Shown: positions 7,649 through 27,155 of the stretch, piece by piece | Position numbering within the stretch: position 1 is the stretch's first letter | How the letters are laid out: each line of letters opens with the position of its first letter | DNA from: an uncultured bacterium | GTDB taxonomy: Bacteria > Cyanobacteriota > Vampirovibrionia > Gastranaerophilales > Gastranaerophilaceae | NCBI GenBank assembly: GCA_949288725.1 | Contig: CASELF010000059.1 | Location: 1 to 54,291 of the forward strand | DNA length: 54,291 nt | Reading direction: 5' to 3' | Position numbers and translations under genes: made by a program | Notes under the pieces: generated by a model | Seen by the model: the letters and a program-made list of their open reading frames with translations, nothing else | Databases searched by the model: none | Told to the model about the DNA's origin: nothing

Positions 7649-9091
7649 ATGGGAATGGCAGCATCACAAGCTAGATTATTAAGCATAACTGCAAGACTGT
7701 CCAACAATGAACAGGAACAGCAGTCAGTTGCTTATTCTAAACAAAGACTTGCTGATACTTCCAATCAAGTTAACCAAACTTATCTTGATGCTATGAATCA
7801 AACAAAGTATCAACTTTTAACTGGTTATAACAGTTCAGAAGCAATTTACGAAGATTTAACTTACAACCAAATAACAGGACTAAATTCAGTAGCAACAGGC
7901 AAGCAATATATTGTAAAAGATAAAGAAGGTAAAGTTCTTGTATCTTCTGCTATTGCTAAGGCATATGAAAATAATAACGGTGATTTCAACAGATTTTTAA
8001 GAGATTTGGGATATACTCAATCAGATGTTGATGTTACTGATTATGCAGGAACAGAAGAGGCAATTCACGAGGCTTGGGACAAATATTTGGCTTCAGTTGG
8101 CAAAAGTATTGATAATTATGAAGATGGTCAACATATTTTAAGTTTTGATTATACAGCATTCAGTGATGAATCATTTGACGGTTATCCTACATATAATACT
8201 GCGTATGCATCAGTAAGCGGTGCGGATAATTATGCAAGTGTATATAAAGACAGCACGGGATATTACAAGGAACGCTATTTAGTTCAGGCAATTGAAGATG
8301 AAAATGGCGATAAATATTGTGCATATCAAACTGATGATCAAGAAGGTTCTGATGAATGGACAATTCTTGAAAACGTTACATATAATACTGAAACAGAAAA
8401 ATTTATGTATCAAAATCTTGATGGTGAAATTGTTTCAGCAGATACAGTATATGCAGATCCTGAAGAAGAATTGATTAGTGAAAATTATAAAAATTACTTA
8501 ACTCCAAATGGCGAAAGTTATGTTTCAGAAGGCGGAGTTGCTTATGATTTGTATAAGCAATCATCTGCACTAAACTTTGAAGGTACAACAGAAGCACAAA
8601 GAGAATTATATGATTATGCCGTATCAATTACAGAGGCATATTATAACAATTCAAAATCTGCATCAAGTAAGAATTTAACATATGATGCACAAATAGTTAC
8701 ATACTATAAGAATATATTTAATCAAATTAGAAAATCAGGATTAACAACAACTAAAAACGAAACAAACTTCAAAGAAACAAATTGGCTTGTAAATCAATTG
8801 AAGGCAGGCGAATTAACATTAGCATATTATTCAACTGCAGATAAAGGTTTTGTAAGTACAACATTAGATGACGATGAATCAATTGTCGAAAAAGAAGATT
8901 CATCAGCAATGGCAATTGCAGAACAAGAATATCAATCAATGATGGATAACATTGAAAGTCAAGATAAACAATTTGATTTGCAATTGAACAGATTATCATC
9001 AGAACACAGTGAACTTCAAACAGAATATGAGGCTGTTAAGAAAGTAATAAGTAACAATGTAGAAAAATCATTTAATATATTTAACGCATAA
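7649..9091 (+). CDS. Hypothetical MAASQARLL-family protein with helical ends
   Basis: A 480-aa protein of unknown function. The N-terminal ~65 residues (MAASQARLLSITARLSNNE...) and the last ~60 residues (...EYEAVKKVISNNVEKSF, ending FNA) are predicted long amphipathic helices. The middle is acidic, Asp/Glu/Tyr-rich and looks globular or loosely structured. Helices at both ends with a variable middle is the architecture of flagellar axial proteins and related export substrates, and there is no signal peptide. I infer, but cannot show, that it is exported or filament-forming. A paralogue ends at 140, with glgC and other genes between. AAAGGA lies rather far (13 nt) from ATG 7649, and ATG 7655 is an alternative start two codons in. 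A terminator follows. Confidence 0.8.
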   Translation: MGMAASQARLLSITARLSNNEQEQQSVAYSKQRLADTSNQVNQTYLDAMNQTKYQLLTGYNSSEAIYEDLTYNQITGLNSVATGKQYIVKDKEGKVLVSSAIAKAYENNNGDFNRFLRDLGYTQSDVDVTDYAGTEEAIHEAWDKYLASVGKSIDNYEDGQHILSFDYTAFSDESFDGYPTYNTAYASVSGADNYASVYKDSTGYYKERYLVQAIEDENGDKYCAYQTDDQEGSDEWTILENVTYNTETEKFMYQNLDGEIVSADTVYADPEEELISENYKNYLTPNGESYVSEGGVAYDLYKQSSALNFEGTTEAQRELYDYAVSITEAYYNNSKSASSKNLTYDAQIVTYYKNIFNQIRKSGLTTTKNETNFKETNWLVNQLKAGELTLAYYSTADKGFVSTTLDDDESIVEKEDSSAMAIAEQEYQSMMDNIESQDKQFDLQLNRLSSEHSELQTEYEAVKKVISNNVEKSFNIFNA

Positions 9092-9139
9092 AGATAATTT
9101 ATTTAATATTTCCCCTACTAATTTTCGTAACTTTTCCCT

Positions 9140-9168
9140 GCCGCAAGATTAAATCAATGCGGCATTTT
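9140..9168 (+). terminator. Rho-independent terminator after the 480-aa gene
   Basis: The stem GCCGCA (9140-9145) pairs with TGCGGC (9158-9163) across a 12-nt loop, followed by ATTTTT. The hairpin overlaps the stop end of the gene on the opposite strand. Confidence 0.7.
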
Positions 9169-9910
9169 TCTTATCTTTATTGTTAACTCCATATCCAAAC
9201 ATTGCAAAATCATATTTTGTAGGGTCTTCAGGACAAAAGTGTTTTAAATTTTCTGTCAATTCAACAACTGATTTAAAGTCATTTGCTTTTCTTATTAATA
9301 GTCCCATCTGTCTTGAAACGTTGCCTACATGAACATCTAGCGGAATATATAATTCAGATGGCTTCATAAAATTCCAAATTCCGACATCAACAACACTTTT
9401 TCTAACCATCCAACGTAAGAGCATACACATTCTTTTCATTGCTCCGCCATTTCTAGGATCAGGTATCATTTGATAAAAACCTTGACCAACATTTTTACTT
9501 GCACGCTCATAAAAATATCCCGTAACTGTTTCAAATAATTTGTTTTGTTGATAGCCGTGTTTAAATAATTCTTCCAGTCCTTCAGAGGTGTTATACAGTT
9601 CTTTTAAAGTTTCAAAGATACAGATAAAATCATTGGGTTTTCCAAAACGGTAATTAAAATCACCGATAATTCCACTTTCAAAATTCTGTATAAAGTTTAG
9701 GGGTTCATTTTGAGCGATATTGAATAAACTGTTTAGTTTTTCAATGAATTGTTTTCTGCTTCCATAGGCAAGTAAAGATGCAATAAAGGAGGCAATTTCA
9801 ATATCTTTTTTGGTACTGAACTTGTGTGCAAATTGTACGGGATCATCCTTTATAAAATCTTTTGTTTCGTATTTTTGTGCAAGTTTATCTAATTCTTCTT
9901 TTGTTATCAT
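9149..9910 (-). CDS. TIGR02757 / DUF2400 family protein
   Basis: A protein of ~253 aa matching the DUF2400 (TIGR02757) family by its characteristic blocks: an opening LDKLAQKYETKDFIKDDP, then SFIASLLAYGSRKQF, RWMVRKS...VDVGIW, the nearly invariant IPLDVHVGNVSRQ, and the ending PTKYDFAMFGYGV. The family is related to HhH/GPD-type folds and its biochemical role is not established. I chose ATG 9910. A TTG at 9928 would add MCNNSL but neither start has a good ribosome site. It stands alone between the 480-aa gene's terminator and the 5'-nucleotidase gene. Confidence 0.88.
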   Translation of the reverse strand: MITKEELDKLAQKYETKDFIKDDPVQFAHKFSTKKDIEIASFIASLLAYGSRKQFIEKLNSLFNIAQNEPLNFIQNFESGIIGDFNYRFGKPNDFICIFETLKELYNTSEGLEELFKHGYQQNKLFETVTGYFYERASKNVGQGFYQMIPDPRNGGAMKRMCMLLRWMVRKSVVDVGIWNFMKPSELYIPLDVHVGNVSRQMGLLIRKANDFKSVVELTENLKHFCPEDPTKYDFAMFGYGVNNKDKKNAALI

Positions 9911-9969
9911 AAGAGAATTATTGCACAAGAAAATTATAACTTCTACTATTAAAACTTGTTAAATCTAAA

Positions 9970-11616
9970 TTAATCCACAATAGTAATTCTATTGTCATCT
10001 TTGATTTCGATAGGTTGCTGAAGTTTTTTGATATAATCGCAAGTTAATTTATCTTTATCAAAATTATATTTTTTAATTACTATATCATTAGGATTATCTG
10101 TTTTTAAGTAGTTATTACCGCCAGTAGCGTAGAAGTCATCACAGGCTACTGTATATTTTTTGTTTGGATCAGGATTATTAACATCAATTTTGTGAGCGAT
10201 GTTGTCTTTGTCAATAAATTCCATTTCAAGTAAATCACCTTGTTTGTTGGCTTTATATTTTAATCCTGAAACAAATAGTAATCCCGGTTTGTGAGTTTGT
10301 TCAGTTAATGATTTTAATCCGACTTTAATAGAATCAACAATTTGTTTTTCTGTCAGATTTATAACCCACATTTTGTCTTCAAAAGGTGTAATATCAGAAA
10401 CTAATCTTGTGTCTATCGGACCTTCAGAAAAACTTCCGCGGATATTACCGGAATTTAGAATACCGATATCTGTACCTAATTCATTTTTCATTGCGTCTAC
10501 TATTATATTCGCATGAGGGTTGCTTTCTATTAGTCTGTTTTCAGGTGGCGGAGTTGCAGTTTTTACTTTTCCGATAACTTCCGGTTTACCTAAGATACTT
10601 TCTACAGTATCTTTTATGTATAAAGGTCTGTTAAATTTTCTTGTTTTAATTATATTATTTTGGGCTTTTTTGATAACTCCATTTTGGTCAAAATCAACAT
10701 TGAGAATTCCAACATTTTCACCATCTTGACCGGCTTGAGTTATTATAACGGGTTCTCCTGATTTTGAGTAGAATAGATTTTCGCCTTCTTTTAATCCTGA
10801 GATAAGTTCATGTGTATGGGCACCAAATATAATGTCAACACCTTCTACTTCTTTTGCTATACGTTTATCATTTTTGTTCCCGCTATGAGATAAAACTACA
10901 ATAATATTTATTCCTTGGTCTTGTAAATTCTTTACTTCATCTTTTAGTAATTTTATAGTTGTATCAATATCTTTAATTGAAAATTTACTTAAAGTATCAT
11001 TCTTTTTAACCCTATCGAACATATCTGATGGGGAAATTCCTATAAGTCCAACTTTTGCATCTCCATAATTTACAACCATAGATTTTTGAATTCTTGATTT
11101 TAGAGGGGAATTTTCTTCAACATCAAGGTTTATTGATAGCATTTTGCATTTTGAATCATCTATTAATTTTGCCAAGTCATCAGGTTTTGCTACATCAAGT
11201 TCGTGATTACCTATTGTAGAAGCCAGAAATCCTGTCCAGTCCATGAATTTGCTTGCAACTTTGTTGTGAAGATAATTTGCACCAAGAATTATATCTCCTG
11301 AAGCAACTTTGAATTTATGTATCGGTTGGGTTGTATTTGTGAAGAAATTTGCACTATAAACTTGAGCAGGAATTCTGTCAAATTCTTGCGATATATTATG
11401 AATTCTTTCCATATTTGTCATTTTGCCGTGAACATCATTTACATATAACCAACTGGTATGTGTAAGTTTTGGTTCTGTAGTTTGCAGAGTATTTGTTTTG
11501 GTTTGTTCATCTGCTGGGGCTGTTTGATAAGTTTTGTCAGGCATGGCTTTAGTATTTTGAATTGGTTTTGCCTGATATGGCTTAAAATATGGATTTATAT
11601 TTGGTGAATTTATCAT
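9970..11616 (-). CDS. UshA-like metallophosphoesterase / 5'-nucleotidase
   Basis: A 548-aa two-domain protein. Residues ~52-330 are a calcineurin-like metallophosphoesterase: VNDVHGK (metal ligands Asp and His), GNHELD, LSHSGNKND and GAHTHE. Residues ~340-540 are a 5'-nucleotidase C-terminal domain: NIIVDAMKNE, GILNSGNIRGSF, ITPFEDKMW and the final DDFYATGGNNY. Relatives hydrolyse nucleotides, usually in the periplasm. Here no signal peptide is seen. Instead there is a ~50-residue Pro/Thr/Gln-rich N-terminus (INSPNINPYFKPYQ...), which makes the location uncertain. AAAGG precedes ATG 11616. Substrate cannot be told from sequence. Confidence 0.9.
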   Translation of the reverse strand: MINSPNINPYFKPYQAKPIQNTKAMPDKTYQTAPADEQTKTNTLQTTEPKLTHTSWLYVNDVHGKMTNMERIHNISQEFDRIPAQVYSANFFTNTTQPIHKFKVASGDIILGANYLHNKVASKFMDWTGFLASTIGNHELDVAKPDDLAKLIDDSKCKMLSINLDVEENSPLKSRIQKSMVVNYGDAKVGLIGISPSDMFDRVKKNDTLSKFSIKDIDTTIKLLKDEVKNLQDQGINIIVVLSHSGNKNDKRIAKEVEGVDIIFGAHTHELISGLKEGENLFYSKSGEPVIITQAGQDGENVGILNVDFDQNGVIKKAQNNIIKTRKFNRPLYIKDTVESILGKPEVIGKVKTATPPPENRLIESNPHANIIVDAMKNELGTDIGILNSGNIRGSFSEGPIDTRLVSDITPFEDKMWVINLTEKQIVDSIKVGLKSLTEQTHKPGLLFVSGLKYKANKQGDLLEMEFIDKDNIAHKIDVNNPDPNKKYTVACDDFYATGGNNYLKTDNPNDIVIKKYNFDKDKLTCDYIKKLQQPIEIKDDNRITIVD

Positions 11617-11705
11617 TTATCTACCTTTTCTTTCATCTTTATTAAAACCCGTAAAAATAAAAGTTGCTCTTTTTTGTTGCTTTATTAAATTATTGTAATA
11701 TTCTT

Positions 11706-13103
11706 TTATGCGGCATTTTTCATTTGCTTATACATACTAAGTCCTTCAATCCAATTTGGTACAATATTCATATCATTTTCAACAATATGTTTTGGCAGGG
11801 CCGCGTGGTGAATTTTCGGAAGAATATAATCTTCTGAATATTCTATCGGTTTGTAGATATTATCATCTGTATCGTTACAAATGAATATCGTTTTTCCGTT
11901 TTCGCCTGTTCTGTAGCCAACTATAGTTATTTCATGCCCATTAACGATGATATTATTATTGTCAGTTTGGGTGTAACCTATAATTACGTCTTCACCTTCA
12001 TTTAGTGCCGTTATTAAATGTTTTTTCATTGTGGCTAAATCTGTTTCATATCCTATCAATCTTGCATTTTCATCTACGGTTTGATAGGTTACGGATAATA
12101 TATTCTTGTCAAATACTACTGATTCAGTGAATGTCTTTTCAAATTCAATTAAGCCTTTATCATTTTGGTTAAATTTGCCTGTCCTTTTATCTGTTAAAGA
12201 GTTATAAGACTGTTGAGAACCTATTTGCATAAAGGTTGATTGCATTAAAACATCCAGAGGGGTTCTTTCTGCCGGATCTTTGTGAGTTGTTTGAATTCTT
12301 GCTCTGATTATTGCGTTTTTATCAGGTGCAAATTTTAATTTTGCAGTATTTAGATCAGTGGTTTCCCACGGAATTTCAAACGAATTTAGTAACCAAATTG
12401 AACTTAGGGTATCATCTGCCAAATTGTTCATTTTTATTGTTTTTTCAACAGATAATTGTGGAGAACTCACTTCTTGGGCAAATCTTGCAAATTCTGCAGG
12501 CATTTGGTTTGCTAATTTGAATTCGGTGCTGGCAGCTACACAAGTTCCTGAGTGTTCTACATTAACATCTAATGCGCCTTGGTAAATATCAATTAGGTTT
12601 GTCTTGTCGGCATTGTTTGCTTTTATAACCGTATCCTTATATTCTTCCGGAATATCTCCGAATTGTTGTGTTATTAAATAAGGATATGCTATTGTCGTTA
12701 ATGTATCGTTAAGTATTGATTTAGCATTAAGCCCTTCTGCTCGTGGCTCTTTTATAATTTTGTATAAATTGTCAAGTACAGAACTCTTATCATTGGAATT
12801 GTTATTTAATAGAATTCCGTTTTTTAAAAGAGTATTAATAATCTTTTTCCCGGATTTGCTAAGATTAGCAGAAACTTCGGTATATTTTTCTTTCTCTTCT
12901 TTTGTGGTTAATGAAGTTCTTAGGTTTATGTTTTGAGGTGGAGTTGCTGCAGAATTAAATTGAACATCTTTTTTTGCTTGTGCAGTAAAAGATGGTACAG
13001 CATGTTCACTATTTCCAATATTCTGAACTTGTTTTTTACGTTCAGTATTTTGAATTGTGTTATAATTATACTGTTGAGTAAAGAAACCTATTTTTTCTAC
13101 CAT
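11706..13103 (-). CDS. Putative papain-like cysteine peptidase, lineage-specific
   Basis: I start this at ATG 13103 (465 aa), preceded by GTGGAG. An upstream start at 13163 would add 20 residues without a better ribosome site. The N-terminus is polar and carries the motif PSFTAQAKKDVQFNS without a signal peptide. A papain-type order of residues is visible: Cys in HSGTCVAAS (~residue 190), a long middle, then His in VNGHEITIVGYR (~400) followed by Asn/Asp in FICNDTDD (~418). The GHEITIVGY...CND spacing is the pattern of C39/C1-like peptidases. This assignment is from motif geometry only, and a transglutaminase-like relative is the other possibility. It is transcribed away from the TOPRIM gene. 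Confidence 0.7.
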   Translation of the reverse strand: MVEKIGFFTQQYNYNTIQNTERKKQVQNIGNSEHAVPSFTAQAKKDVQFNSAATPPQNINLRTSLTTKEEKEKYTEVSANLSKSGKKIINTLLKNGILLNNNSNDKSSVLDNLYKIIKEPRAEGLNAKSILNDTLTTIAYPYLITQQFGDIPEEYKDTVIKANNADKTNLIDIYQGALDVNVEHSGTCVAASTEFKLANQMPAEFARFAQEVSSPQLSVEKTIKMNNLADDTLSSIWLLNSFEIPWETTDLNTAKLKFAPDKNAIIRARIQTTHKDPAERTPLDVLMQSTFMQIGSQQSYNSLTDKRTGKFNQNDKGLIEFEKTFTESVVFDKNILSVTYQTVDENARLIGYETDLATMKKHLITALNEGEDVIIGYTQTDNNNIIVNGHEITIVGYRTGENGKTIFICNDTDDNIYKPIEYSEDYILPKIHHAALPKHIVENDMNIVPNWIEGLSMYKQMKNAA

Positions 13104-13181
13104 AATAACTCCACATATATTATAAAAACTGAAATAAAGAAAAATTGCTACTTGTGTAAACAAATATTAAAGAGGAAGTAA

Positions 13182-14168
13182 TTGAAAATTACAAAAATAA
13201 AACCATTATCAAAAGATCAATTGATAATTTCCATTGATAGATTAACAAGGTTCAAGGAGCCGGAAGTAAAATATATGAGAGTATTTTCTGATATTTTGGC
13301 TTCAAATTTGATAATCCCTAAATTAAAGAAATCAGAAATGGAGAGAATAGATTACCATGAGATAACAAGAGTTGTTGAAGAAATAATTAATTCCTCCTTA
13401 AAATCATACGGAATTGAACAGACTGATAACTATACAATAAATAATAAAATTTATGAATATGAAAACACAATATTTAAAATAGATGAAAATACAGAAATTT
13501 TGTTGAAAAACAAAATAAACTATGATGGATTTGTAAATTTGATAACAGAAGATGCCCCTAAGAATTTGCAATGGCTAAAGGCGCAAAAGTATGTTGAAGA
13601 TATAAAGAGTTTTCGCCAAAGCCACCTAATAAAATATCCGATAGAAAAAGTAGTAATAGTGGAAGGTGCAACAGAAGAAACATTGCTACCTGAATTTGCG
13701 AGAAGATGTGATTATGATTTTGATAAAAATGGGGTATATATACTTTCAGCCGGTGGGAAAAATCAAGTAGTAAAACTATATTATTCATTGGTGGAAAAGT
13801 TAAAAATTCCTATTTTTGTCTTGTTGGACAAAGATGCTAAACAAAATCAGGAATATATAAACTATAAGTTAAGACCGCAAGATAGCATTCACTTGTTATC
13901 ATGTGGAGAATTTGAGGATTTGTTGCCAATGGACTTGGTGAAAAGGACATTGGAATATGAGTTAAACAATATATCAATGGTCGAACAAGAAATGCTGAAA
14001 CCGGCAGAACCAAGGGTAAAAATATTGGAAGAAATATTTAAAACCCGAGGCATGCATGAATTTAAAAAGGTAGAATTTGCCCAGATGGTACGTAGTAATA
14101 TAGCCCAAGAAAGCGATATATCAGCCGAAATACGGGAAATAATCAACGGAATAGAGAAATTAAAATAA
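13182..14168 (+). CDS. Stand-alone TOPRIM-domain protein, OLD-nuclease-like
   Basis: A 328-aa protein. The start is TTG 13182, 4 nt after AGAGGAAG. Residues ~155-260 look like the TOPRIM domain of OLD-family nucleases: the Glu motif VIVEGATEE, then LSAGGKNQV, then the Asp pair in VLLDKDAKQN, then SCGEFEDLLP. The N-terminal 150 residues are helical and not recognised. The AAA/ABC ATPase that normally precedes this TOPRIM in OLD proteins is absent, and no ATPase gene adjoins it. It lies directly upstream of the tRNA-Glu promoter. A DNA-cleaving or repair role is inferred from the domain only. It should not be confused with the other TOPRIM-like gene in the integrated element. Confidence 0.75.
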   Translation: MKITKIKPLSKDQLIISIDRLTRFKEPEVKYMRVFSDILASNLIIPKLKKSEMERIDYHEITRVVEEIINSSLKSYGIEQTDNYTINNKIYEYENTIFKIDENTEILLKNKINYDGFVNLITEDAPKNLQWLKAQKYVEDIKSFRQSHLIKYPIEKVVIVEGATEETLLPEFARRCDYDFDKNGVYILSAGGKNQVVKLYYSLVEKLKIPIFVLLDKDAKQNQEYINYKLRPQDSIHLLSCGEFEDLLPMDLVKRTLEYELNNISMVEQEMLKPAEPRVKILEEIFKTRGMHEFKKVEFAQMVRSNIAQESDISAEIREIINGIEKLK

Positions 14169-14505: not shown

Positions 14506-16278
<1,773 letters not shown>

Positions 16279-16519: not shown

Positions 16520-17422
16520 TTACGTCATTTTTTCTTTATAAATAAATATGTCTTTAAATAGTTGCTTAAATTCTTTATTTATAAGGAGTTTCTCCGTATT
16601 GCACATTTCGAAGTCTAATATATGTTTCCAGTTTTTATGATGTTTTTCGTATAATGGTGCAGACTCTTTATCTATAAGGCTTTTCATATAATTTATAAAT
16701 TCAACTAAGTAAAAGTAATGGCGTTTGATTTCATATACTTTAGTTTGTTTATACTTAGAGCAAATTATATTTTTAACAGGAAGTTTTAAATATAGTTTGT
16801 GTAATATTGTTAAAATATTTTTATCTCTATTTGCTAGAGTATTTTTTGAAGGTTTAAAATATTTAGTTTTAAATTTTTGATTATAAAAATTTGTTTTATC
16901 TGTGTATTTCTCGGAGTTTTCAATTCTATCTAATCGTTTATGTAATGTGTCTTCTAGAGGAGTTAAATTATTTATATGATTAACTTGTGGGTTTTTGTTG
17001 TTGTGATGTACTGTAAGGCTAATTATATTGTGATATAAACACATAACTAATCTATGTAGTAAGTAAGGGTTAGATTCTTTTTTTATTGCATTGTTTATTG
17101 TGGTGCATAACCCTTGTTTTGCTAAATAATATAGTATGTTAGCTGGCATGTTTTTTAATAAATAAGGTTTATCCAGTTTGACATATTGAGATGCTAGTTC
17201 TGTTTGTTTTAATTCTATGATTTTGGGTGTTTTACAATTTTCAATTATTAAGTAATAGTTTTGAAGATTGATATATTCGTTATTACTTGAAATGATTGCT
17301 AAATAGTATCCGTTTATAAATCCATCTCCAAGTACTAAATAATGTTTTTTGTGTATTAAATATTTGTTTGATATTTTTTCTCTAATGAAATTTTTATACA
17401 ATAAAGTTAAACGGTTTTTCAT
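16520..17422 (-). CDS. Putative HNH-endonuclease-like protein of the element
   Basis: A 300-aa basic protein. I choose ATG 17422, preceded by AAAAGGAGACATT. An upstream ATG at 17446 would add eight residues. Residues ~138-158 read VHHNNKNPQVNHINNLTPLE, the HNH pattern (His-His, Asn, then a second half with Asn-His and NL) typical of homing-type and phage HNH nucleases. The rest is Lys/Tyr/Asn-rich and unrecognised. It lies between the integrase and the 500-aa protein on the same strand, with ~90 nt gaps on both sides. It could be part of a defence pair with the upstream gene or an accessory of mobility. Either is inference. Confidence 0.6.
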   Translation of the reverse strand: MKNRLTLLYKNFIREKISNKYLIHKKHYLVLGDGFINGYYLAIISSNNEYINLQNYYLIIENCKTPKIIELKQTELASQYVKLDKPYLLKNMPANILYYLAKQGLCTTINNAIKKESNPYLLHRLVMCLYHNIISLTVHHNNKNPQVNHINNLTPLEDTLHKRLDRIENSEKYTDKTNFYNQKFKTKYFKPSKNTLANRDKNILTILHKLYLKLPVKNIICSKYKQTKVYEIKRHYFYLVEFINYMKSLIDKESAPLYEKHHKNWKHILDFEMCNTEKLLINKEFKQLFKDIFIYKEKMT

Positions 17423-17511
17423 AATGTCTCCTTTTCGTTTTGACATTATGAGTAAACCATTTTTTAGGAATGTATCGGTAAAATCCTTGGCGAATGTTTG
17501 CTCGGGATTTT

Positions 17512-19014
17512 TTATAAAAGCATTTCAATTTGTTTGATATTCATCATTATAAAGACTCTTTTTTCTTGTGATGGATTTTTGAAAAACATTTCTATGCTAT
17601 TAGGAATTGTATTTAATGCTCTAACTAAAATTTCTGTTTTTTGCGTGATTTCAGCGTCTTTATCATAAAATGCTGTCTTGTATGTTTTAAAGTATTCCTC
17701 TTCATTATTGATTTTATCAAAGTTTGAGAAAATATTAGTAATAGTTTTATTTGTTTTATTTTCAAAAAACGGGTAAATATTTCTTATAATAGATAGTGCA
17801 AATTCTTGTTTTGACGTTTTTTCTAAGTTTTGATAGATTTTTTCAAGTGTAGATGTTTGAGAAAATAATGTATTATATATAATTGTAAGATAATTGTCTG
17901 CAAAATCTTTAAATTTATTAAAGCTCTCTTTTTGATTTATATTGGTGCAGTGTTGCGCATTCATATATTCACATTCACTACAATTATGATCACAATCATA
18001 CATTAAGTTAAAACTATGCAGAAACATATTATATTCTTCATCAAGTGCTAATTTCTCAAGATTGTTTTTTGAAACTTTGTAATTTAAACTTTGACTAAGA
18101 CTTTTTGTTATGAATTTAGCAAATTTGTACATATTTTGAATTGTTTTATAAGCTTTTTTAGCTTGGTAAATTATTATATATTCATCTGAAGAATAAGCAT
18201 TGTGTACACTTTTAATTTGAGCTAATTGGGTGTTTCTATTCTTTTCTAGCTCTTTTTTATATTCCTCATCTTCAAAGTATAAATTTGCTTTGTTTTCACC
18301 TGCTTTAAAGGATTTCCACGCAAATATTTTCGCTGCGTTTGAGATATTTTTTAATTGGTCTTTAAAGAAAATTTCAAGTGAATCATACATAAAAATCCAA
18401 AACCAATAATTGTTTAGCAATTCAGGTGATTTTCCCCAAAGTTTATAGTATTGTGGATTATCTCTAAAAAAGGCTAATAGTTCGTGCTTTGTGCCATAAT
18501 CTAACGTATCTGAAAAATATAATGCTAAATAGTGACCAAGAAATTCTTTTGTATCAAATGTTGCATATAGTGAAACAGGGATTTGAAAAGCTTCTTTTAT
18601 TTCATTAGTGTATATTAGTAATTCTCCAAATAGTAATGTGGGTTTTAATAGTGGTAATGTGTCTAATAATACTGTTTTAAAAAATTTATAAGTTATAGGC
18701 TTTTCATAGTTAATAGTTCTATAATTATATAGTTTTTCATAATCTTTTTTTGTTAGCCTTTTTATATCTTCATCACTTAATGAAAATAATAATTTTGTTA
18801 TTTTTTTTAGGTATGGTATTAAAAAATCTCTTGGGTTAGTGTTGCATAAATCATCTATCAGTTCAGTGAAGAAATTGTCATCAAAATAGTTATCAAGTAA
18901 ATCTTCTGGAGTTTCATCATCAAATTCAGAAAAATCAACATTGTGGTGAAAGCATAGTCTTAATAGGCTGTTTAACTTAATTTTGATTTTTTTATTAAAT
19001 TTTTTGAATTTCAT
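17512..19014 (-). CDS. Unknown ~500-aa protein with a cysteine cluster
   Basis: I do not recognise this protein. It is Lys/Phe/Asn-rich, soluble and mostly helical. The only distinctive motif is a cysteine cluster at ~residues 340-360 (YDCDHNCSECEYMNAQHC), which could bind zinc or an iron-sulfur centre. ATG 19014 has AAGGA at proper distance, while ATG 19020 two codons up overlaps that site. It precedes the HNH-like gene on the same strand with a 90-nt gap, so the two may be expressed together. Upstream, 19021-19211 is an AT-rich gap with no gene. Confidence 0.7.
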   Translation of the reverse strand: MKFKKFNKKIKIKLNSLLRLCFHHNVDFSEFDDETPEDLLDNYFDDNFFTELIDDLCNTNPRDFLIPYLKKITKLLFSLSDEDIKRLTKKDYEKLYNYRTINYEKPITYKFFKTVLLDTLPLLKPTLLFGELLIYTNEIKEAFQIPVSLYATFDTKEFLGHYLALYFSDTLDYGTKHELLAFFRDNPQYYKLWGKSPELLNNYWFWIFMYDSLEIFFKDQLKNISNAAKIFAWKSFKAGENKANLYFEDEEYKKELEKNRNTQLAQIKSVHNAYSSDEYIIIYQAKKAYKTIQNMYKFAKFITKSLSQSLNYKVSKNNLEKLALDEEYNMFLHSFNLMYDCDHNCSECEYMNAQHCTNINQKESFNKFKDFADNYLTIIYNTLFSQTSTLEKIYQNLEKTSKQEFALSIIRNIYPFFENKTNKTITNIFSNFDKINNEEEYFKTYKTAFYDKDAEITQKTEILVRALNTIPNSIEMFFKNPSQEKRVFIMMNIKQIEMLL

Positions 19015-19211
19015 GGTCATTCCTTATGTTTATACCTAAAATTGATTTAAGTGCCCTTTTAAAGTAGCTAAAAATTTTTAGTGTCTGGAAGCCTTGTCTC
19101 ATAAGGGCTAAATTTGTTTTTTTATTTTTGCACTAAAAATAAAGCCTGTGTTGTGAATTGGAGAAAATTTTGGCAAAGTTTATTAAAGGTATTTTCTTCT
19201 ATTGTAAAAGT

Positions 19212-19538
19212 TTATAGTTGTTTTAAATTGATAAGTGATTTATAGCAAAATTGTAATTCTTTGTCACTAAGAGAAGGTAATATATTTGTTATCAATTCAA
19301 TAAGTTCTTCTTTGCTTTTGATATGCTCAATTTGAAACAATTCAAATATTTCAACTCCAAGAATTTTGGCAATTTTTTCTAAGTTTTCATCAGTTGGTCT
19401 TTGTTTTCCACTTTCAATTCTTGTGAAATTAGATCGTTCCATGTCTAACATATCAGCCATTACACATTGTTTTATGTTTCGTGCAAGTCTTAATTCTTTT
19501 ATCCGTAGTCCAAGTTTATTACTTAATTCAGTTTTCAT
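19212..19538 (-). CDS. XRE-family helix-turn-helix regulator, divergent from mod
   Basis: A ~108-aa protein. Residues ~5-62 are a Cro/C1-type HTH: GLRIKELRLARNIKQCVMAD, then the recognition region MERSNFTRIESGKQRPTDEN and KIAKILGVEIFELF. A ~40-residue helical tail follows. ATG 19538 is preferred. A TTG at 19586 would start in the operator region. The gene is read away from the type III mod gene, and a 10-bp inverted repeat lies between them, so it probably controls the methylase and/or itself, like controller proteins of restriction-modification systems. Confidence 0.9.
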   Translation of the reverse strand: MKTELSNKLGLRIKELRLARNIKQCVMADMLDMERSNFTRIESGKQRPTDENLEKIAKILGVEIFELFQIEHIKSKEELIELITNILPSLSDKELQFCYKSLINLKQL

Positions 19539-19582
19539 AATAATAGGATAGCTTGTTTTTTGAGTTTTAAACACATTATTAG

Positions 19583-19610
19583 TCAATACAAATGTTGACT
19601 TTTGTATTGA
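19583..19610. promoter_or_regulatory. Candidate operator: 10-bp perfect inverted repeat between XRE gene and mod
   Basis: TCAATACAAA (19583-19592) and TTTGTATTGA (19601-19610) are exact inverted copies around an 8-bp spacer. A -35-like TTGACT sits in the spacer at 19595-19600, facing mod. A second small palindrome GTCATGAC follows at 19611-19618. This is a good candidate binding site for the XRE protein. Confidence 0.65.
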
Positions 19611-19677: not shown

Positions 19678-21552
19678 ATGGCTGAAAGTTTGATTGAACA
19701 ATTACCAAAGATTGTTGCAGAAGGTAAAAAAGAAGTTGAAAGAATTATGGAGCGTTTAGATAGCTCTAATAAAATAACATTACAAACAAATGAGTATGTT
19801 TTGCCTGTAAAAAAAGAAGAAAATTTGTTTAAAAGTAAATATCAAGATATAGATGGTCAAAATTGGTTTAATAGGCTTATTTACGGTGATAATTTACTTG
19901 TGATGCAGGCTTTATTAAACGGAGATGAACAAACTGGTATGCCATCAATGAGGGGTATGATTGATTTAATTTATATTGATCCACCTTACGATAGTAAAGC
20001 TGATTATCGAACAAAAATAACATTACCCGATTGCAATATAGAACAAAAACCTAATGTCCTAGAGCAATTTGCATATTCTGATACTTGGAAAGAAGGAACT
20101 GTAAGTTATTTAAAGTATATGTATCCACGCTTATATTTAATGAAAGAATTATTATCTGATAATGGGGCTATATATGTACATGTAGATTACCATATTGGGC
20201 ATAGTTTAAAACTAATACTTGATGAAATATTCGGGAAAGAAAATTATATAAATGAGGTAATCTGGTTATATAATACAGGAGGTATTCCTGAAAAATGTGG
20301 GTTTGCCAAAAAGCATGATACGATTCATTTATATGCTAAGAATAAATCTCTTGTGAAATGGAATAGTCAAAAAGCAAAAACTTATATTAGAGGAGATTTT
20401 TTTAATCCAGATCAACCTCGAGCTAAAGAATTGGGTATAGAGCAAGATGCATACGGCTTATATCGAATGACAGAAATGAAAGATGTTTGGGAAATTGGCA
20501 AAATTTTTCGAAATTCTCCAGAACGTTTGGGTTATGCTACTCAAAAACCTGAGGAATTATTAAAGAGAATTATTTTTTCTGTAACTTCAGAAAATTCAAT
20601 AGTTGCAGATTTCTTTGCAGGTTCTGGAACAACTGGAGCCGTTGCAGAAAAATTAGGTAGACGTTGGATTATGTCTGATTTTGGAAAACCTGCCAATATG
20701 ATTATGCGCAAACGTCTTATTGATCAGGAGGCAAAACCATTCTTATATCAAGCTGTAGGTGATTATCAAAAAGAAGTCTTTGCTTCAACAAAAGAATTTA
20801 AAAGGGTTGGTGATTTGTCACAAGTAGTATTAAATTTATTTGGTGCAACTCCATTTTTTGATGAAAATGCACCTAAGAATTTAGGCCAAATTAAAGGTTC
20901 AAGAACTCTTGTATATGTAGATAGTCCAAATAAAATGACTGGTCTGTCTACAATAAAAAAAGCTCAAGAATTAAAAGAAAGTTTTATGGGAGGTTGGAAT
21001 AAAGTTATTATCTTAGGTTGGAATTTTACTTTTGATATTGCAAATATATTGAAAAATATTGATAATTCTCAGGTTGAAGTTTTAGTTATTCCACCGGATT
21101 TAATGGATAAACTTAAATCAAAAGGTAATTATAAAAAACTTATTGATTCAAATAAAATAAAATTTTCATCATTACAATATTTGACAATTAAAGAACCGAT
21201 AGTAAATACATATTCTTGTGATATTGAAGAAATTGAAATTGAATTAGATAATTATGTTTTATTATCTCCTAATGCTTTACCATTGGATGATAAATACAAA
21301 GATCAGTTACAATCTATAATTGCTGATGATCCTCTAGCTTTAATAGAATATTGGAGTATCGATCCAGATTATGATGGAGAAACTTTCAGAAGTAAATGGC
21401 AGGATTATAGAGAAAATACTCATAATGATGATGATCCATTGAGAGTTATTAGAAAAGCAAAACTTCAAGTTCCTCAAAGAGATAATAGGAAAATTTGTGT
21501 TAAAGCCGTTGATGTATTTGGCTTTGAAAGTGTTATAGTGAAGGAGTTATAA
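19678..21552 (+). CDS. mod: Type III restriction-modification system, Mod (N6-adenine methyltransferase)
   Basis: The modification and recognition subunit of a type III system. The 624-aa length is typical. Motif IV DPPY appears in [14 protein letters not shown] (~residue 101) before the SAM-binding motif [16 protein letters not shown] (~315), the beta-class order expected for type III Mod. The region between (~150-290) is the target-recognition stretch and would set the specificity, which cannot be read from sequence. ATG 19678 has only a weak GGG upstream. The res gene begins 3 nt after its stop. Mod alone methylates; with Res it forms the nuclease. Confidence 0.95.
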
Positions 21553-21555
21553 TAA

Positions 21556-24456
21556 ATGCCAACATTATTGAATACAGGGACTAAAGATATCCCTTTATAT
21601 TTTGCAAAACAATTAACAAATATTGTAAATCAAGAATGGGAAGCTGGAACTTTTTTTTCTAAAGTTACTCCTATAACGCAAGATTTATTGAGATATTGGT
21701 TCAATCCTGTATTTTGTGATTCAAGAGAAATAAATTTTCATAGAGGACAAAAGCAAGCAATTTTAAATGCTATTTATTGCCATGAAATTTTAAAGGCTGA
21801 TTCAATATTATCAATGTATCAGCAGGCAAGTCAAGATTTATTAACTCCTGAGATATTTAATTATATCAATGATGAAAAATATAATCATCCTAAATATTGT
21901 ATAAAAATGGCAACGGCTACTGGTAAAACTTTTGTATTAAATGCTTTACTAATATGGCAATATTTAAATGCTAAATATAAAGAAATTGATAATGAAGTTA
22001 AATTTACTAAAAACTTTTTATTAGTAGCACCAGGGTTGATTGTTTATGAAAGATTATTAGATGCTTTTTTAGGGAAAGAACAAGAAGATGGTAAACGTAA
22101 TTTTGAAACTTCTGATATAAAGAAAAATGAAAAATTATTTGTTCCTGAAAAATATAGAAACGCCTTATTTAGTTTTATCCAGAATAATGTTGTTCAAAAA
22201 GAAGAAATTGCAAAGAAAATTACTGGAGATGGGATTATAGCTATAACAAATTGGCATTTACTTGCGGGTGTTGAAGAGTCAGAAAATTCAGAAATTTCAC
22301 CGTTTCAAGATACAAGTAAAATAATTAAGGATTTATTGCCTATAACTCCAGGAACTACGGCTGGACACGATTTAAATACAATTGATAATAGATTTTTAAA
22401 GGGTGGAGAATTAGAATATTTACAATCTTTAGATAATATATGTGTTTTTAATGATGAAGCGCACCATATACATGAAAATAAACAGAATGGTATTGTTTCT
22501 GAAGTTGAATGGCAAAAATCCTTGAATTATATCTCAAAAGGTAAAGGTCGAAATTTTATTCAAATTGATTTTTCAGCTACTCCATATGATATTACAGGTT
22601 CAGGACAAAAAAGGACTAAACATTATTTCCCTCATATTATTGTTGATTTTGCGTTAAAAGAAGCGATAAAAGATGGTTTGGTAAAAACTATAACAATTGA
22701 TAAGCGTAGAGAATTTGCGTCATTAGAAAATGATGAGTTAGATTTTAAATCTGTTAAGGATGGGAATAACATTATTGCTTTATCTGAAGGTCAGCGCATA
22801 ATGATTAGGGCAGGTTTGAGTAAATTAAAATTATTAGAAGAAGAATTTACAAAAGAGAATGAAAACAAATATCCAAAAATGCTTATCATGTGTGAAAATA
22901 CAAAAGTGTCACCTTTTGTTTGTGATTTTTTAAGGCAAGAGGGTTTATCTGATGATGAGATAATGCAAATTGATACAGATAAACAGGGTGAAGTTGGGGC
23001 AAAAGAATGGGGTAAAATTAAACAACGATTATTCAATGTTGATAAACATTCCAATCCCAAAGTAATAGTTTCTGTATTGATGTTAAGAGAAGGGTTTGAT
23101 GTTAGTAATATATGTGTAGTTGTACCTTTACGCTCTGCGCAATCTTTCATATTATTAGAACAAACGGTAGGACGTGGTTTAAGATTAATGTGGAGGGAAA
23201 AAGATTATCAAGATATAAAAGCTGAAAATAGATATAAGATGTTTGTAGAAAAGCAAAGTCCAAATAATTATCTTGATATACTTAGTATAATTGAACATCC
23301 TGCATTTATTCAGTTTTACGATGATTTAGAAGCTGGGTTGGTTGTAGATGAAAAAGAAATGCCTGAAAGGGGAAATATCTTAGGTGATATTATAACTGTA
23401 GGTTTAAAGGAAGATTATCAAAAATATGATTTTTATATTCCTACAATATTGTCAGAAAAAGAAGAAATTTTAACTATTGAAGATATTGAACTTGGAAAGT
23501 TACAACGTTTACCATGGGCTTTATCTCAATTACAAAATATGGTTAAAGATTATGATGGAGAGACCTTTTATTCTGAAGAAATGATTGATAAAACCAGATT
23601 TGGAGATTACAAGGTAACTAGTGATTTGTTCAATGCGAATAGTTATAATGAATTTTTATCAAGAATGCTAATTGCTGTTACAACAAAACTTGCAAGAATT
23701 GCTGGTCATTCAGAATATCCATTAATGCAGGTAAACCAATCTTATATAGTTAAAATTATTGATGAATATATTAGAAAAACTCTTTTTGGTGAGCCTTTTA
23801 ATCCCTTAGAAGGGAATAATTGGCGAGTACTAATGATTTCAAAATTTGGAATTTTAGAACATATATTAAGGCAGATTAGCAATTTAATTTATAATATGCA
23901 AACTTCTGTTAAAATTCAGGATGCACATATTATTAAGCGATATTTTTCAGATGTTCAGACTTTAAAAATGAGAGAAAATTTTGCGCTAGATATTCGTAAA
24001 TCTATATATACCAAAACGGCTTATCCTTCCAATAAAGGTGGGTTTGAAAAAGATTTCTTATTATATGCTGATAATGATGCACAAGTTGAAAAGTTACTTA
24101 AAATCAATGAGAATTATCATACTTTTGCACATTTAAAATATATCAGAACTGATGGTTTATTATCATCATATTACCCTGATTTTATTGTCAAAATTGGTAA
24201 TAATATATATTTAGTTGAAACGAAATCTGAAAAAGATGTTGAACAGAATAATGTTAAGCAAAAACAAAAAAGTGCACTTGAATGGTGCAATAAAATAAAT
24301 GAGTTAACTCCAGAAAATAGAATGAATAGCTTATGGCATTATTCATTATTAGATGATACAACATTTTATTCTATGAAAAATTTGGGAGCTTCATTAAAGG
24401 AAATCTTGGAATATAGCAAGCTTACAAATGGTAAGATAGAAGGCAAGTTATTTTAA
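21556..24456 (+). CDS. res: Type III restriction-modification system, Res (helicase-nuclease subunit)
   Basis: A 966-aa ATP-dependent restriction subunit. Helicase motifs are intact: Walker A MATATGKTFVLNALL (~residue 120), DEAH-type box FNDEAHHIHE (~300), SATPYD motif III (~343), and motif VI EQTVGRGLRL (~540). A C-terminal PD-(D/E)xK nuclease is visible as YYPDFIVK...YLVETKSEKD (~875-900). AAGGAG overlaps the end of mod and serves ATG 21556, so mod and res are one operon. All key residues seem present, so the system is likely active. Confidence 0.95.
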   Translation: MPTLLNTGTKDIPLYFAKQLTNIVNQEWEAGTFFSKVTPITQDLLRYWFNPVFCDSREINFHRGQKQAILNAIYCHEILKADSILSMYQQASQDLLTPEIFNYINDEKYNHPKYCIKMATATGKTFVLNALLIWQYLNAKYKEIDNEVKFTKNFLLVAPGLIVYERLLDAFLGKEQEDGKRNFETSDIKKNEKLFVPEKYRNALFSFIQNNVVQKEEIAKKITGDGIIAITNWHLLAGVEESENSEISPFQDTSKIIKDLLPITPGTTAGHDLNTIDNRFLKGGELEYLQSLDNICVFNDEAHHIHENKQNGIVSEVEWQKSLNYISKGKGRNFIQIDFSATPYDITGSGQKRTKHYFPHIIVDFALKEAIKDGLVKTITIDKRREFASLENDELDFKSVKDGNNIIALSEGQRIMIRAGLSKLKLLEEEFTKENENKYPKMLIMCENTKVSPFVCDFLRQEGLSDDEIMQIDTDKQGEVGAKEWGKIKQRLFNVDKHSNPKVIVSVLMLREGFDVSNICVVVPLRSAQSFILLEQTVGRGLRLMWREKDYQDIKAENRYKMFVEKQSPNNYLDILSIIEHPAFIQFYDDLEAGLVVDEKEMPERGNILGDIITVGLKEDYQKYDFYIPTILSEKEEILTIEDIELGKLQRLPWALSQLQNMVKDYDGETFYSEEMIDKTRFGDYKVTSDLFNANSYNEFLSRMLIAVTTKLARIAGHSEYPLMQVNQSYIVKIIDEYIRKTLFGEPFNPLEGNNWRVLMISKFGILEHILRQISNLIYNMQTSVKIQDAHIIKRYFSDVQTLKMRENFALDIRKSIYTKTAYPSNKGGFEKDFLLYADNDAQVEKLLKINENYHTFAHLKYIRTDGLLSSYYPDFIVKIGNNIYLVETKSEKDVEQNNVKQKQKSALEWCNKINELTPENRMNSLWHYSLLDDTTFYSMKNLGASLKEILEYSKLTNGKIEGKLF

Positions 24457-24829: not shown

Positions 24830-25465
24830 TTATTTATATAGTTTTAAAATTTGGAAAAGTTCTTTTAATGCAGGTATATTCTTGCTTCTCTCAAGTATTG
24901 CCTTTTTGGATAAATTTTTATAATAAAAGTCTTTTTCTTTTTCTGCATTATTGAAACCATAAATCCCAGCTAATGCATCCTTTAATATATTAACATTTTC
25001 CTTGATAGTTTTTTTGGGGTTAATTTCAGGCGTTCTTTTGGATAATAGTTGAATAATAATATTTTCAATACTAAGAGGTTCTGATAATATGATGATTGGA
25101 TTTTTATTTTTTTTATTTAACTTTTTTAAATCAGTTAATGATATATTTTGAGGAATTTTATTTAATCCCCAAATATACTTTAGTGATTGCAATTTAGTAT
25201 AATCATTGATTTGTACATCATTATCTAACCAAGCAATCACAGTATCGTAATACATTTTTTGTAATGCCTTTTCTATTCTACTCTCAGGAGTACCTCCATA
25301 AGAATTAAGTTTTCTTTTATCTCCAAGTTCTAATTTTATATGATTTTCAGTTAGTTCATACTCAAATATTTCTTTAAAGTAAGAAAATAAATTATATTCT
25401 CTGATACCTTCGCATGATATATATACAATATGTTGAACTGTTCTTCTTCTTTTCTTCTTAGCCAA
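24830..25465 (-). CDS. RloB / AbiLii-like TOPRIM-type effector
   Basis: A 211-aa protein of the RloB kind. It has a basic N-terminus (AKKKRRRT), then VYISCEGIREYNLF (the Glu-Gly TOPRIM-like motif) and VIAWLDNDVQ (the Asp pair), with ILSEPLSIENII later. RloB proteins accompany an ATPase and correspond to the second gene of AbiL-type abortive infection systems. The TOPRIM metal site suggests nucleic-acid cleavage. Its start overlaps the end of the ATPase gene by 8 nt, showing coupled translation. That it is the toxic effector released on phage infection is inference from related ATPase-TOPRIM systems. Confidence 0.83.
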   Translation of the reverse strand: MAKKKRRRTVQHIVYISCEGIREYNLFSYFKEIFEYELTENHIKLELGDKRKLNSYGGTPESRIEKALQKMYYDTVIAWLDNDVQINDYTKLQSLKYIWGLNKIPQNISLTDLKKLNKKNKNPIIILSEPLSIENIIIQLLSKRTPEINPKKTIKENVNILKDALAGIYGFNNAEKEKDFYYKNLSKKAILERSKNIPALKELFQILKLYK

Positions 25466-26687
25466 TAGATATTACCCCTCTTGGTACAGCACCATAACGT
25501 CCTGATAGATATTTTAGTGCAAAATTTTCGGATGTTCGAACTCCACTTATATCATCTAATCTGTATATTTCGGAATTTATTGTATCTGTTTTTTCAACTA
25601 GGAATATTTGACTTTTATTTCTTTCCTCTAGTAAAACGGGTTGATGTGTTGTAAATATTAGTTGAACATCTGGATTATCTTTTGTTTTCCATTCAAATTC
25701 AGCAATCAATTGTTTTACAATAGATGGGTGTTTACTCATTTCAATTTCATCAACAATAAATAATCCACCTTCTTTAATTAAATTCAAAATAGAAATTAAT
25801 AAAGAGATACTTTTTATAGTACCTTCAGATTCATATAATAAAGGTACAACAAAGCTTTTATCATTTTTACCATGTACAAAATTTATTAATTCTCTATCAA
25901 AAATTGTATTATTATTAGTATCACTAATTGCCCATTTACTTTTTACTGTTTTAGATATATCCGTAATGCCTATATCAAAAGATTTAACAGTGTTTAATAT
26001 TTTTTGTTTTAAATCTTCATTTGATTCAATAGTTTCAGATATTTCAAAACAATCAAATATTGCAGGAGGATTTATTCCCCCTTGTTCTGTAAGATTTGAG
26101 TAAAAATTTTTAAATAGGTCCTTCAACCCTAATGCAGCTAAAGAGCCTGTAGTTACTAAGTATGAAAATAGAGAACTATTTTTTTTATCAATTAAACGAC
26201 TTCTTTCTACAGTTCCTATTGCTTGCATTGGTGCAAAATATCTTGTTCTGAATGAATTTTCATTATTACGCGTAGAGGTATATAGTGTTTTAAACTTTGG
26301 CATTTTCAAATCTTTATAGCTTAAAGTCTCTTTTATTATATAATCTCTATTAAATTCAAAACGAAGCTTAAATAGATTTTTTTCTCCACTAAAAATCATT
26401 TCCATTTCTGAAGGTTGATCTTTTAATAGACAATGTGGTTTAAATGGAATTTTCTCATTAATTTTAACTTTTGAAAAAGAGTCGACAGCTAACCATTTAA
26501 AAAAAGCAATAGCTTTTAACATGTTAGACTTCCCCGAAGCATTATTCCCTACAATACAACTAATTTTATTAACATAACCAAAGCTTGTTTTTGCTACACT
26601 ATTATCTATTTGTTTTGATGTAGTAAAATCGAACTCTTGTGTTTCTCCTATGCTATAAAAATTTTTTACTTTTAATTTATATAACAT
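25458..26687 (-). CDS. AbiLi / RloA-like AAA ATPase
   Basis: A 409-aa ABC/SMC-type ATPase (COG1106-like). It opens with LKVKNFYSIGETQEFDF and Walker A CIVGNNASGKSNMLKAIAFF (~residues 48-67). Walker B is LFIVDEIEMSKHPSI (~300), followed by the switch His in LIFTTHQPVLLEE. A helical insert of ~200 residues separates the halves. ATG 26687 has GGAAG at 8 nt, while ATG 26693 is too close to that site. It is the probable sensor/regulator partner of the RloB-like gene. It is transcribed inward from attR and has its own promoter candidate. Confidence 0.87.
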   Translation of the reverse strand: MLYKLKVKNFYSIGETQEFDFTTSKQIDNSVAKTSFGYVNKISCIVGNNASGKSNMLKAIAFFKWLAVDSFSKVKINEKIPFKPHCLLKDQPSEMEMIFSGEKNLFKLRFEFNRDYIIKETLSYKDLKMPKFKTLYTSTRNNENSFRTRYFAPMQAIGTVERSRLIDKKNSSLFSYLVTTGSLAALGLKDLFKNFYSNLTEQGGINPPAIFDCFEISETIESNEDLKQKILNTVKSFDIGITDISKTVKSKWAISDTNNNTIFDRELINFVHGKNDKSFVVPLLYESEGTIKSISLLISILNLIKEGGLFIVDEIEMSKHPSIVKQLIAEFEWKTKDNPDVQLIFTTHQPVLLEERNKSQIFLVEKTDTINSEIYRLDDISGVRTSENFALKYLSGRYGAVPRGVISIG

Positions 26688-26722
26688 TAACATCTTCCTT
26701 TATTTTTTGCATATTATTTGCA

Positions 26723-26819: not shown

Positions 26820-27113
26820 TTAAAAATAATATAGGGGGTATGTTTTATTGGAATATTTGTATATAACTTGGCGTTGTCCTTTCCCAAATTTATATTCTAC
26901 TTTTCTAGTTCTTTTTATAAGTCCTTTTTTACGTAATTCTTTAATCCACCATTCAGTTTGTCCAAGAGTTAAACCCAAAGATTTTTCCATTAAACCTCTA
27001 GTAAACTCCCTTTTTTGTTGCACCCATGCAATTATTACTTCTGAAGATAGTTTTCTTTTCTGGTCATTAGGTTTCCATATACATACTTTTCCAGCTCCCG
27101 CAACCATTTTCAT
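26820..27113 (-). CDS. Winged-helix reading frame ending at attR: detached C-terminus of the integrase
   Basis: A 97-codon open frame. Its first eight codons (MKMVAGAG) are the attR core, identical and in the same frame as in the integrase at attL. After the core come 89 codons with a winged helix-turn-helix look: an initial helix SSEVIIAWVQ, then EFTRGLMEKSLGLTLGQTEW, then recognition WWIKELRKKGLIKR and a basic wing KVEYKFGKGQRQVIYKY. There is no ribosome site before its ATG, and an in-frame stop lies on the chromosome side just outside attR. I read it as the real end of the integrase gene in the excised circle, not as an independent gene. Confidence 0.7.
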   Translation of the reverse strand: MKMVAGAGKVCIWKPNDQKRKLSSEVIIAWVQQKREFTRGLMEKSLGLTLGQTEWWIKELRKKGLIKRTRKVEYKFGKGQRQVIYKYSNKTYPLYYF

Positions 27114-27155
27114 AGAAGGTGCAAAGTCACCTTCTTTTTTAGTTTTAGCGCTATT
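27090..27155 (+). repeat. attR (direct repeat, right copy)
   Basis: It repeats the last 17 nt of tRNA-fMet, its terminator hairpin and ~15 bp beyond. The rest of the tRNA is absent here. Downstream of 27155 is chromosome; 27156-27357 is AT-rich and has no gene I can support. Confidence 0.93.

Follow-up and report, generated by a model that had tools for sequence, protein, structure and literature searches.

A tRNA-Met defence island of a Gastranaerophilaceae bacterium with a serine recombinase gene that integration may split and a recombinase-linked, I-HmuI-like HNH protein

Two neighbouring genes in the window (the whole stretch of DNA analysed, 54,291 nucleotides), encoding a 500-aa orphan protein and an HNH protein, are best read as neighbours in a 12.5-kb integrative defence island and not as one system (probability about 0.7). 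On this reading the HNH protein would be a mobility nuclease of the I-HmuI type, the 500-aa protein would be cargo, and the large serine recombinase of the island would occur in two forms. A recombinase made in two forms appears to be the most unusual part of the island, and the anatomy of the recombinase is the part that is new. The HNH protein is predicted from sequence and model to be an I-HmuI-like nuclease, a familiar type of enzyme found here in a new setting beside recombinases. The original pairing of the two genes is put down to their chance positions within a defence island.

The island and its contents

The island lies in a tRNA-Met gene of a gut bacterium of the Gastranaerophilales family, carries a recombinase, and is bounded by 66-bp repeats of the tRNA 3' end (Table 1). 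Between the att copies are, from left to right, the large serine recombinase, HNH and 500-aa genes, an HTH regulator, type III mod and res, a 109-aa ORF, AbiLii-like and AbiLi-like genes, and the ORF at 26820-27113. The first-pass annotation had placed the two genes in a defence-rich element, and the recombinase, type III R-M and AbiL-like genes bear this out. The G+C minimum (about 0.25) falls over the HNH and 500-aa genes. In G156, which was checked for an empty tRNA-Met site, the left-flank contig ends at the tRNA and the right-flank contig starts near attR.

Table 1. Positions of the island's features and of its insertion site in the window
Feature	Position	Strand	Remarks
tRNA-Met (cat), insertion target	14506..14582	(+)	ARAGORN
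Large serine recombinase, 583 aa	14539..16290	(-)	Pfam Resolvase + Recombinase; crosses attL, stops inside tRNA gene
attL, 66-bp direct repeat	14566..14631	.	3' end of tRNA-Met and downstream sequence
HNH protein gene	16520..17446	(-)	308 aa (start probably at 17422); an N-terminal domain, the HNH unit and a helical/HTH-like C-terminal domain
HNH motif	16940..17008	(-)	Residues 147-169 (HH...N...H); aligned by HMMER to I-HmuI H75/N87/N96
500-aa orphan protein gene	17512..19020	(-)	502-aa ORF, likely start 19014; probably all-helical
CX3CX2CX7C cluster	17947..17994	(-)	Residues 343, 347, 350 and 358 of 502-aa ORF; window's copy only
Cro/C1-type HTH regulator, upstream of 500-aa gene	19212..19586	(-)	HTH_3 E 1.4e-10
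Type III R-M methyltransferase (mod)	19678..21552	(+)	PADLOC MTase_III E 1.4e-69; N6_N4_Mtase
Type III-like restriction helicase (res)	21556..24456	(+)	PADLOC REase_III E 3.8e-25; ResIII
AbiLii-like protein (weak)	24830..25465	(-)	PADLOC AbiLii E 0.002
AbiLi-like AAA ATPase	25458..26693	(-)	PADLOC AbiLi E 9.2e-66; AAA_21
Small, probably winged-HTH ORF	26820..27113	(-)	Begins in attR; in frame with recombinase in predicted circle
attR	27090..27155	.	96.97% identical to attL

Both minus-strand ORFs were confirmed as real genes on the same strand, as originally described. The start given for the larger gene (ATG at 19014) is probably correct, since by eye it has a better-placed ribosome-binding site than the start at 19020; the likelier start of the HNH gene is the ATG at 17422, behind AAAAGGAGACATT.

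Several other genes were observed in the window. An OLD/GajA-like TOPRIM protein is encoded just outside attL (13182-14168), next to a gene for a 485-aa protein without a known family (11706-13163). Two CheR-type methyltransferases, 36% identical to each other, are encoded on opposite strands (27358-28116 and 31335-32186), and the C-terminal region of a single 4808-aa ORF (37093-51519) shares 47% identity across 433 residues with a protein of 950 aa in G181 (L021:7511-10363).

A serine recombinase gene probably interrupted at the att core

The recombinase of the window ends within the tRNA gene as ...SMKMVAGAGFEPTTFGL, and the same frame at attR opens the ORF at 26820-27113 (the tail ORF), which begins MKMVAGAGKVCIW...; joining the island ends in silico yields a single ORF of 664 aa. 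Homologues of the tail ORF were identified in 10 of 296 other family genomes. Larger stretches were fetched for eight of these ten, and five have a related serine recombinase at the opposite end. In four of them (G208, G134, G047 and G148), the recombinase ends ...SEMVAGAGFEPTTFGL, the tail ORF starts MVAGVHIERVW (with a TTG start in G047), both ends share an exact core of 12-17 bp, and the predicted circles read through without stops to give 666, 656, 656 and 656 aa, respectively. An IMG/VR contig provides a sixth in-frame case (663 aa); in G141, the recombinase end is lost and no fitting join was found. Thus, in six of the seven islands that hold both parts, the predicted circle encodes one recombinase of 656-666 aa with the att core inside its reading frame, which is the arrangement of a gene-splitting recombinase.

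It is rather unlikely that the in-frame join is a coincidence and that the tail ORF is an independent gene starting in the att core. Frame and place are maintained in six of seven islands, and in G027 a natural ORF fuses sequence resembling the end of the recombinase to the tail domain; an intact, full-length natural fusion of recombinase and tail domain was not found in the phage or viral searches, as would be expected of separate genes. Several copies have an ATG in the core, although it is missing in G141, G047 (TTG or CTG) and G111, and no shared promoter or ribosome-binding site is evident upstream of the core, because the chromosome there differs in each island. In a control, 6.8-18% of random splice points in single islands stayed open equally long. 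Because random splices stay open at this rate, the argument for a split gene does not depend on openness alone but draws on the homology, place and frame seen across six islands.

The recombinase of the window is 44-46% identical to those of its relatives, and the tails are 37-39% identical. Among six relatives, the dN/dS values of the tail (0.03-0.32) indicate a domain under purifying selection; this claim is confined to the relatives because values between the window and its relatives are 0.54-1.02, with large dS. The tail domain is probably a winged HTH, a weak label that derives from FaeA-family matches below that family's cut-off (E 0.004-0.013) in three of four relatives scanned, and from a comparison with PapI-type 2htj (E 0.12); the window's own copy matched no winged-HTH family. 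No member of the HNH family described below was identified in the DNA fetched for the other islands with a tail ORF.

Because the predicted circle encodes one continuous recombinase, integration would cut the tail domain off. The excised circle would produce a 664-aa recombinase with the C-terminal, probably winged-HTH domain, and integration would interrupt the gene at the att core and leave a 583-aa form ending in residues encoded by the tRNA gene. The extra domain would probably affect the choice of att site or the strength of binding, with an effect in either direction, and the 583-aa form would help to keep the island integrated. A search of titles and abstract openings in the literature returned no gene-splitting serine recombinase, which is no proof of absence.

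Among 13 further serine recombinase ORFs, eight (L024, L028, L072, L128, L131, L133, L135 and L136) terminate within a tRNA gene (Leu, Glu, Asn, His, Ile or Gln) or 1 bp away from one. These recombinases may be gene-splitting too; the DNA fetched for seven of them yielded no second att.

The HNH protein: a predicted I-HmuI-like nuclease

The HNH protein of the window matches a PHROG HNH family (E 2.1e-7), and the best match of its family profile to PDB sequences is I-HmuI (E 3.3e-4). The AF2 model is confident (pLDDT 82.8, pTM 0.84) and has a betabetaalpha unit at residues 145-173 (strands 145-148 and 161-164, helix 166-173), so both the HNH reading of the first-pass annotation and its expectation that the pattern would fold as such a unit hold. 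In the structural comparison, I-HmuI was the top row (Z 5.1, middling by the tool's own note; rmsd 3.9 over 79 aligned residues), followed at ranks 2 and 3 by HNH enzymes of the McrA type (Z 3.6 and 3.0). A Foldseek search of the PDB returned nothing at E <= 0.001; the fold search of viral structures gave a best E of 2.8e-3, with many phage HNH proteins lower down the list. The family claim rests on the PHROG match, the PDB profile match and the fold, because Pfam yielded no family at E <= 1.

The catalytic residues H148, N160 and H169 are intact in the window's protein. Across the 14 members of the family, H148 and N160 are invariant, and the third catalytic place is occupied by H in 11 members and by N in three (G012, G261 and G332). 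Based on sequence and model, we infer a working, site-specific endonuclease of the I-HmuI type that probably nicks DNA and binds it through a C-terminal domain; I-HmuI and its relatives are described as nicking one strand (PMC3428280).

Recombinase partners of the HNH family

A family profile was run over 383 genomes of the bacterial family, 33 of which had a match at E <= 0.001; the HNH family is defined here as the 14 members with E <= 2.5e-46. All 14 loci have a Pfam integrase (PF00589, 11 loci) or Recombinase (PF07508, three loci) on the same contig, 824-2021 bp away. The recombinase-linked genomes hold 97 PF00589 and 15 PF07508 matches, which gives a rough average chance of 0.028 per genome of finding one within 3 kb. 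The HNH genes of G381 and G279 are near-copies, so the 14 loci represent at most 13 independent cases. In a class-wide sample of 250 genomes, there were four HNH matches, all within the same bacterial family, and no strong match outside it.

Weaker matches to the profile numbered 25, and 13 of these places were fetched; one (G193:C26) is the tail of a family member, leaving 12. A recombinase (tyrosine integrase) occurs near two of the 12 only, L078 and L079, which are the strongest (E about 5e-8), and the ten others (L080-L089) have no integrase within 9-16 kb. In L079, the HNH relative lies beside a short integrase.

The tree, which has long branches, rejects a single clade of the three serine-linked HNH proteins (AU p 0.00014), and the nuclease therefore seems to have switched recombinase partner. 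A small excisionase-like HTH gene occurs within 300 bp of the HNH gene in seven of the 11 tyrosine loci and in none of the three serine loci (four of the seven are seeds of the search profile, and three match Pfam HTH_17). Given these separate excisionase-like genes and the partner switch, the HNH protein is neither an excisionase nor tied to one type of recombinase. A tRNA gene overlaps the recombinase gene or lies within 118 bp of it in eight of the 14 loci, and one lies on the HNH side in two more; the four loci with no tRNA gene near either gene include two contigs of 5 kb. Att repeats of a tRNA end were detected in five of 12 loci tested (window, L023, L029, L071 and L078), or four of ten family loci tested.

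PADLOC models (E <= 1e-10) matched near the HNH gene in six of seven other loci with proteins scanned: C3a139 (G040), Cas9 (G156), PDC-M68B (G159), type I R (G261), type IIG and a DrmD-like protein (G079), and a TIR-type effector (G011); G244 had no PADLOC match at that threshold near its HNH gene. The island ends are known for the window, G156 and G011, and the defence genes of other loci are presumed to lie within islands. In G156 (L023:5721-15333), a 9.6-kb island between 46-bp tRNA-Gly repeats encodes an integrase, an HTH_17 protein and an HNH-family protein together with a type II CRISPR-Cas set, which comprises cas9 (9016-12120), cas1, cas2 (PF09827 E 6.7e-14) and an 18-repeat array. Beside a TIR-type effector gene, L029:4304-5776 encodes an unplaced 490-aa island protein with a weak NucS-like stretch (E 0.0055).

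In six of the 14 loci (L019, L025, L027, L028, L070 and L071), the N-terminal domain of the HNH protein is encoded by a separate small ORF upstream, split at the same domain boundary, with gaps to the main ORF of -15 to 39 bp (177 bp in L025). In L029 and L030, the C-terminal part is a separate overlapping ORF at the 3' end. The split ORFs could encode a protein that is naturally in two parts, with coupled translation, or they could be signs of decay.

Having the gene in pieces in eight of 14 loci is one of several features of a plain free-standing homing endonuclease that parasitises the islands without service to them, along with a homing endonuclease as closest known protein, phage HNH genes as distant relatives, and a patchy spread (14 strong members in 383 genomes). 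We nevertheless consider such a parasite doubtful: the gene has a fixed place beside recombinases of two unrelated families, the catalytic residues are retained in all 14 members, split ones included, and in G156, G079, G381 and G279 the HNH gene is closely packed with the small HTH gene of the mobility region. As a mobility nuclease, the HNH protein would help the island to spread or to compete with other mobile DNA, and would not act as an effector of the 500-aa protein.

For the bacterial family as a whole, the chances are about even for a broader two-part proposal. Large serine recombinases of Gastranaerophilaceae tRNA-Met islands would be gene-splitting, with a circle form of 656-666 aa whose probable winged-HTH domain is swapped on integration for a tail read from the tRNA gene, as a switch between integrating and staying; and the I-HmuI-like nickases, as a family that passes between islands whose recombinases are unrelated, would be a second mobility factor of such islands.

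The 500-aa protein

Two relatives of the 500-aa protein are convincing, L019:7915-9300 (G040, 28% identity) and L020:3396-4784 (G193, 26% identity), with many invariant columns in the alignment, and dN/dS between the G040 and G193 genes is about 0.20 (dN 0.137, dS 0.696); the larger ORF is therefore coding. These three members were all that the overlapping samples yielded (288 family genomes, 383 order genomes, the genome-contig scan and eight genomes of the G040 genus), leaving out weak, stop-containing matches in G181, G137 and G183 (E 6.8e-5 to 6.8e-4). The Cys cluster that the first-pass annotation reported is present in the window's copy, with the spacing CX3CX2CX7C instead of CX4CX2C, and it is missing from both relatives; we reject it as a family hallmark, since it occurs in one of three members.

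Pfam, NCBIfam, PADLOC and PHROG offered no convincing family for it. TAFH (18.7 bits against a cut-off of 27, E 0.0018) and phrog_23716 (E 0.042) were taken as chance matches. Searches of PDB sequences (E <= 10) and of phages, plasmids and viral contigs returned no match, and hhalign of the 500-aa profile against 308 ORFs of at least 180 aa from the fetched loci recovered its own copies only. A membrane segment is not evident (best 19-residue hydropathy 1.35). Structure prediction, proposed earlier as a check, gave an AF2 model from three sequences with a pLDDT of 43.5 and no usable detail, from which we take only that the protein is probably mostly helical.

In all three members, the gene follows a small HTH gene. 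This upstream gene is of the Cro/C1 type in the window and G193, with 41% identity between the two, and of the MerR type in G040, and beyond it lie divergent R-M or helicase genes. The 500-aa protein is probably a rare, fast-changing cargo or third island gene; it comes after a small HTH regulator, with R-M cargo on one side and the mobility genes on the other, and an Abi- or toxin-like role controlled by that regulator would be a guess.

The proposed gene-neighbourhood survey showed that the nuclease occurs independently: among the 14 strong HNH loci, the 500-aa gene is present in the fetched DNA only in the window and G040. The claim that the two genes travel together does not hold for the HNH gene, which mostly occurs without the 500-aa gene, but still fits the 500-aa gene, which adjoins an HNH gene in both loci where the contig continues (window and G040). 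In G193, the contig stops 280 bp past the 500-aa gene, and another contig (G193:C26) starts with the tail of an HNH-family gene. A one-way dependence of the 500-aa gene on the HNH gene is compatible with the two testable loci.

A two-gene defence system, with the 500-aa protein as sensor of infection and the HNH nuclease as the effector that it releases, is highly improbable. In its favour are the adjacent, same-strand order with the 500-aa gene upstream in a defence island, and the HNH gene next to it in two of two testable loci (perhaps also G193). Against it, 12 of the 14 HNH loci lack the 500-aa gene in the fetched DNA and the HNH gene is always beside a recombinase, the Cys cluster occurs in one of three members, and neither protein has a PADLOC match at E <= 0.1.

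Significance

Serine recombinases are widely used as tools, and how they are kept from excising is an open question. If integration truly alters the form of the recombinase, the att site itself would carry the direction control of such an enzyme. The HNH protein is a testable candidate mobility nuclease, and its link to recombinases provides a sequence marker for finding defence islands in this gut lineage, on whose defence islands the literature searches returned no study. A false lead is also closed, in that the nuclease belongs with the recombinase for study and not with the 500-aa protein.

Comparison with known systems

The closest known protein to the HNH protein is I-HmuI (PDB 1u3e), the HNH homing endonuclease of phage SPO1. 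Both have a betabetaalpha HNH unit with the catalytic order H-N-N/H, an N-terminal beta part and a separate C-terminal DNA-binding part. Unlike I-HmuI, the predicted nuclease is encoded outside any intron, beside island integrases, and identity is about 20% over the 79 aligned residues.

For the recombinase, the archaeal SSV1-type 'suicidal' tyrosine integrases are described as having the attachment site inside the integrase gene, which integration splits at a tRNA (PMC8371274). The att site within the recombinase gene and the predicted fragmentation at a tRNA are shared; the protein here differs in being a bacterial serine recombinase with Resolvase and Recombinase domains, which would remain whole, with only a small C-terminal domain lost. 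In the integration-dependent immunity of mycobacteriophages, as outlined in PMC9262239, attP lies in a coding gene and attB in a tRNA gene, and integration alters the C-terminal end of a regulator. The affected gene in those phages is that of the repressor, which is deprived of a degradation tag, and they use a tyrosine integrase. In the window's island, by contrast, it is the recombinase itself that would change, losing a probable DNA-binding domain.

At the level of the whole element, phage satellites and helper-dependent islands with defence genes, as characterised in PMC11389934, are likewise small and tRNA-linked, with a recombinase and variable defence cargo; unlike these, the window's island has no recognised packaging or capsid gene. 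GInt genomic islands similarly combine a fixed recombination module with changing cargo, and their module is described as tyrosine integrases within a set of four genes (PMC5385486), whereas in the islands analysed here one nuclease family is found beside two recombinase families.
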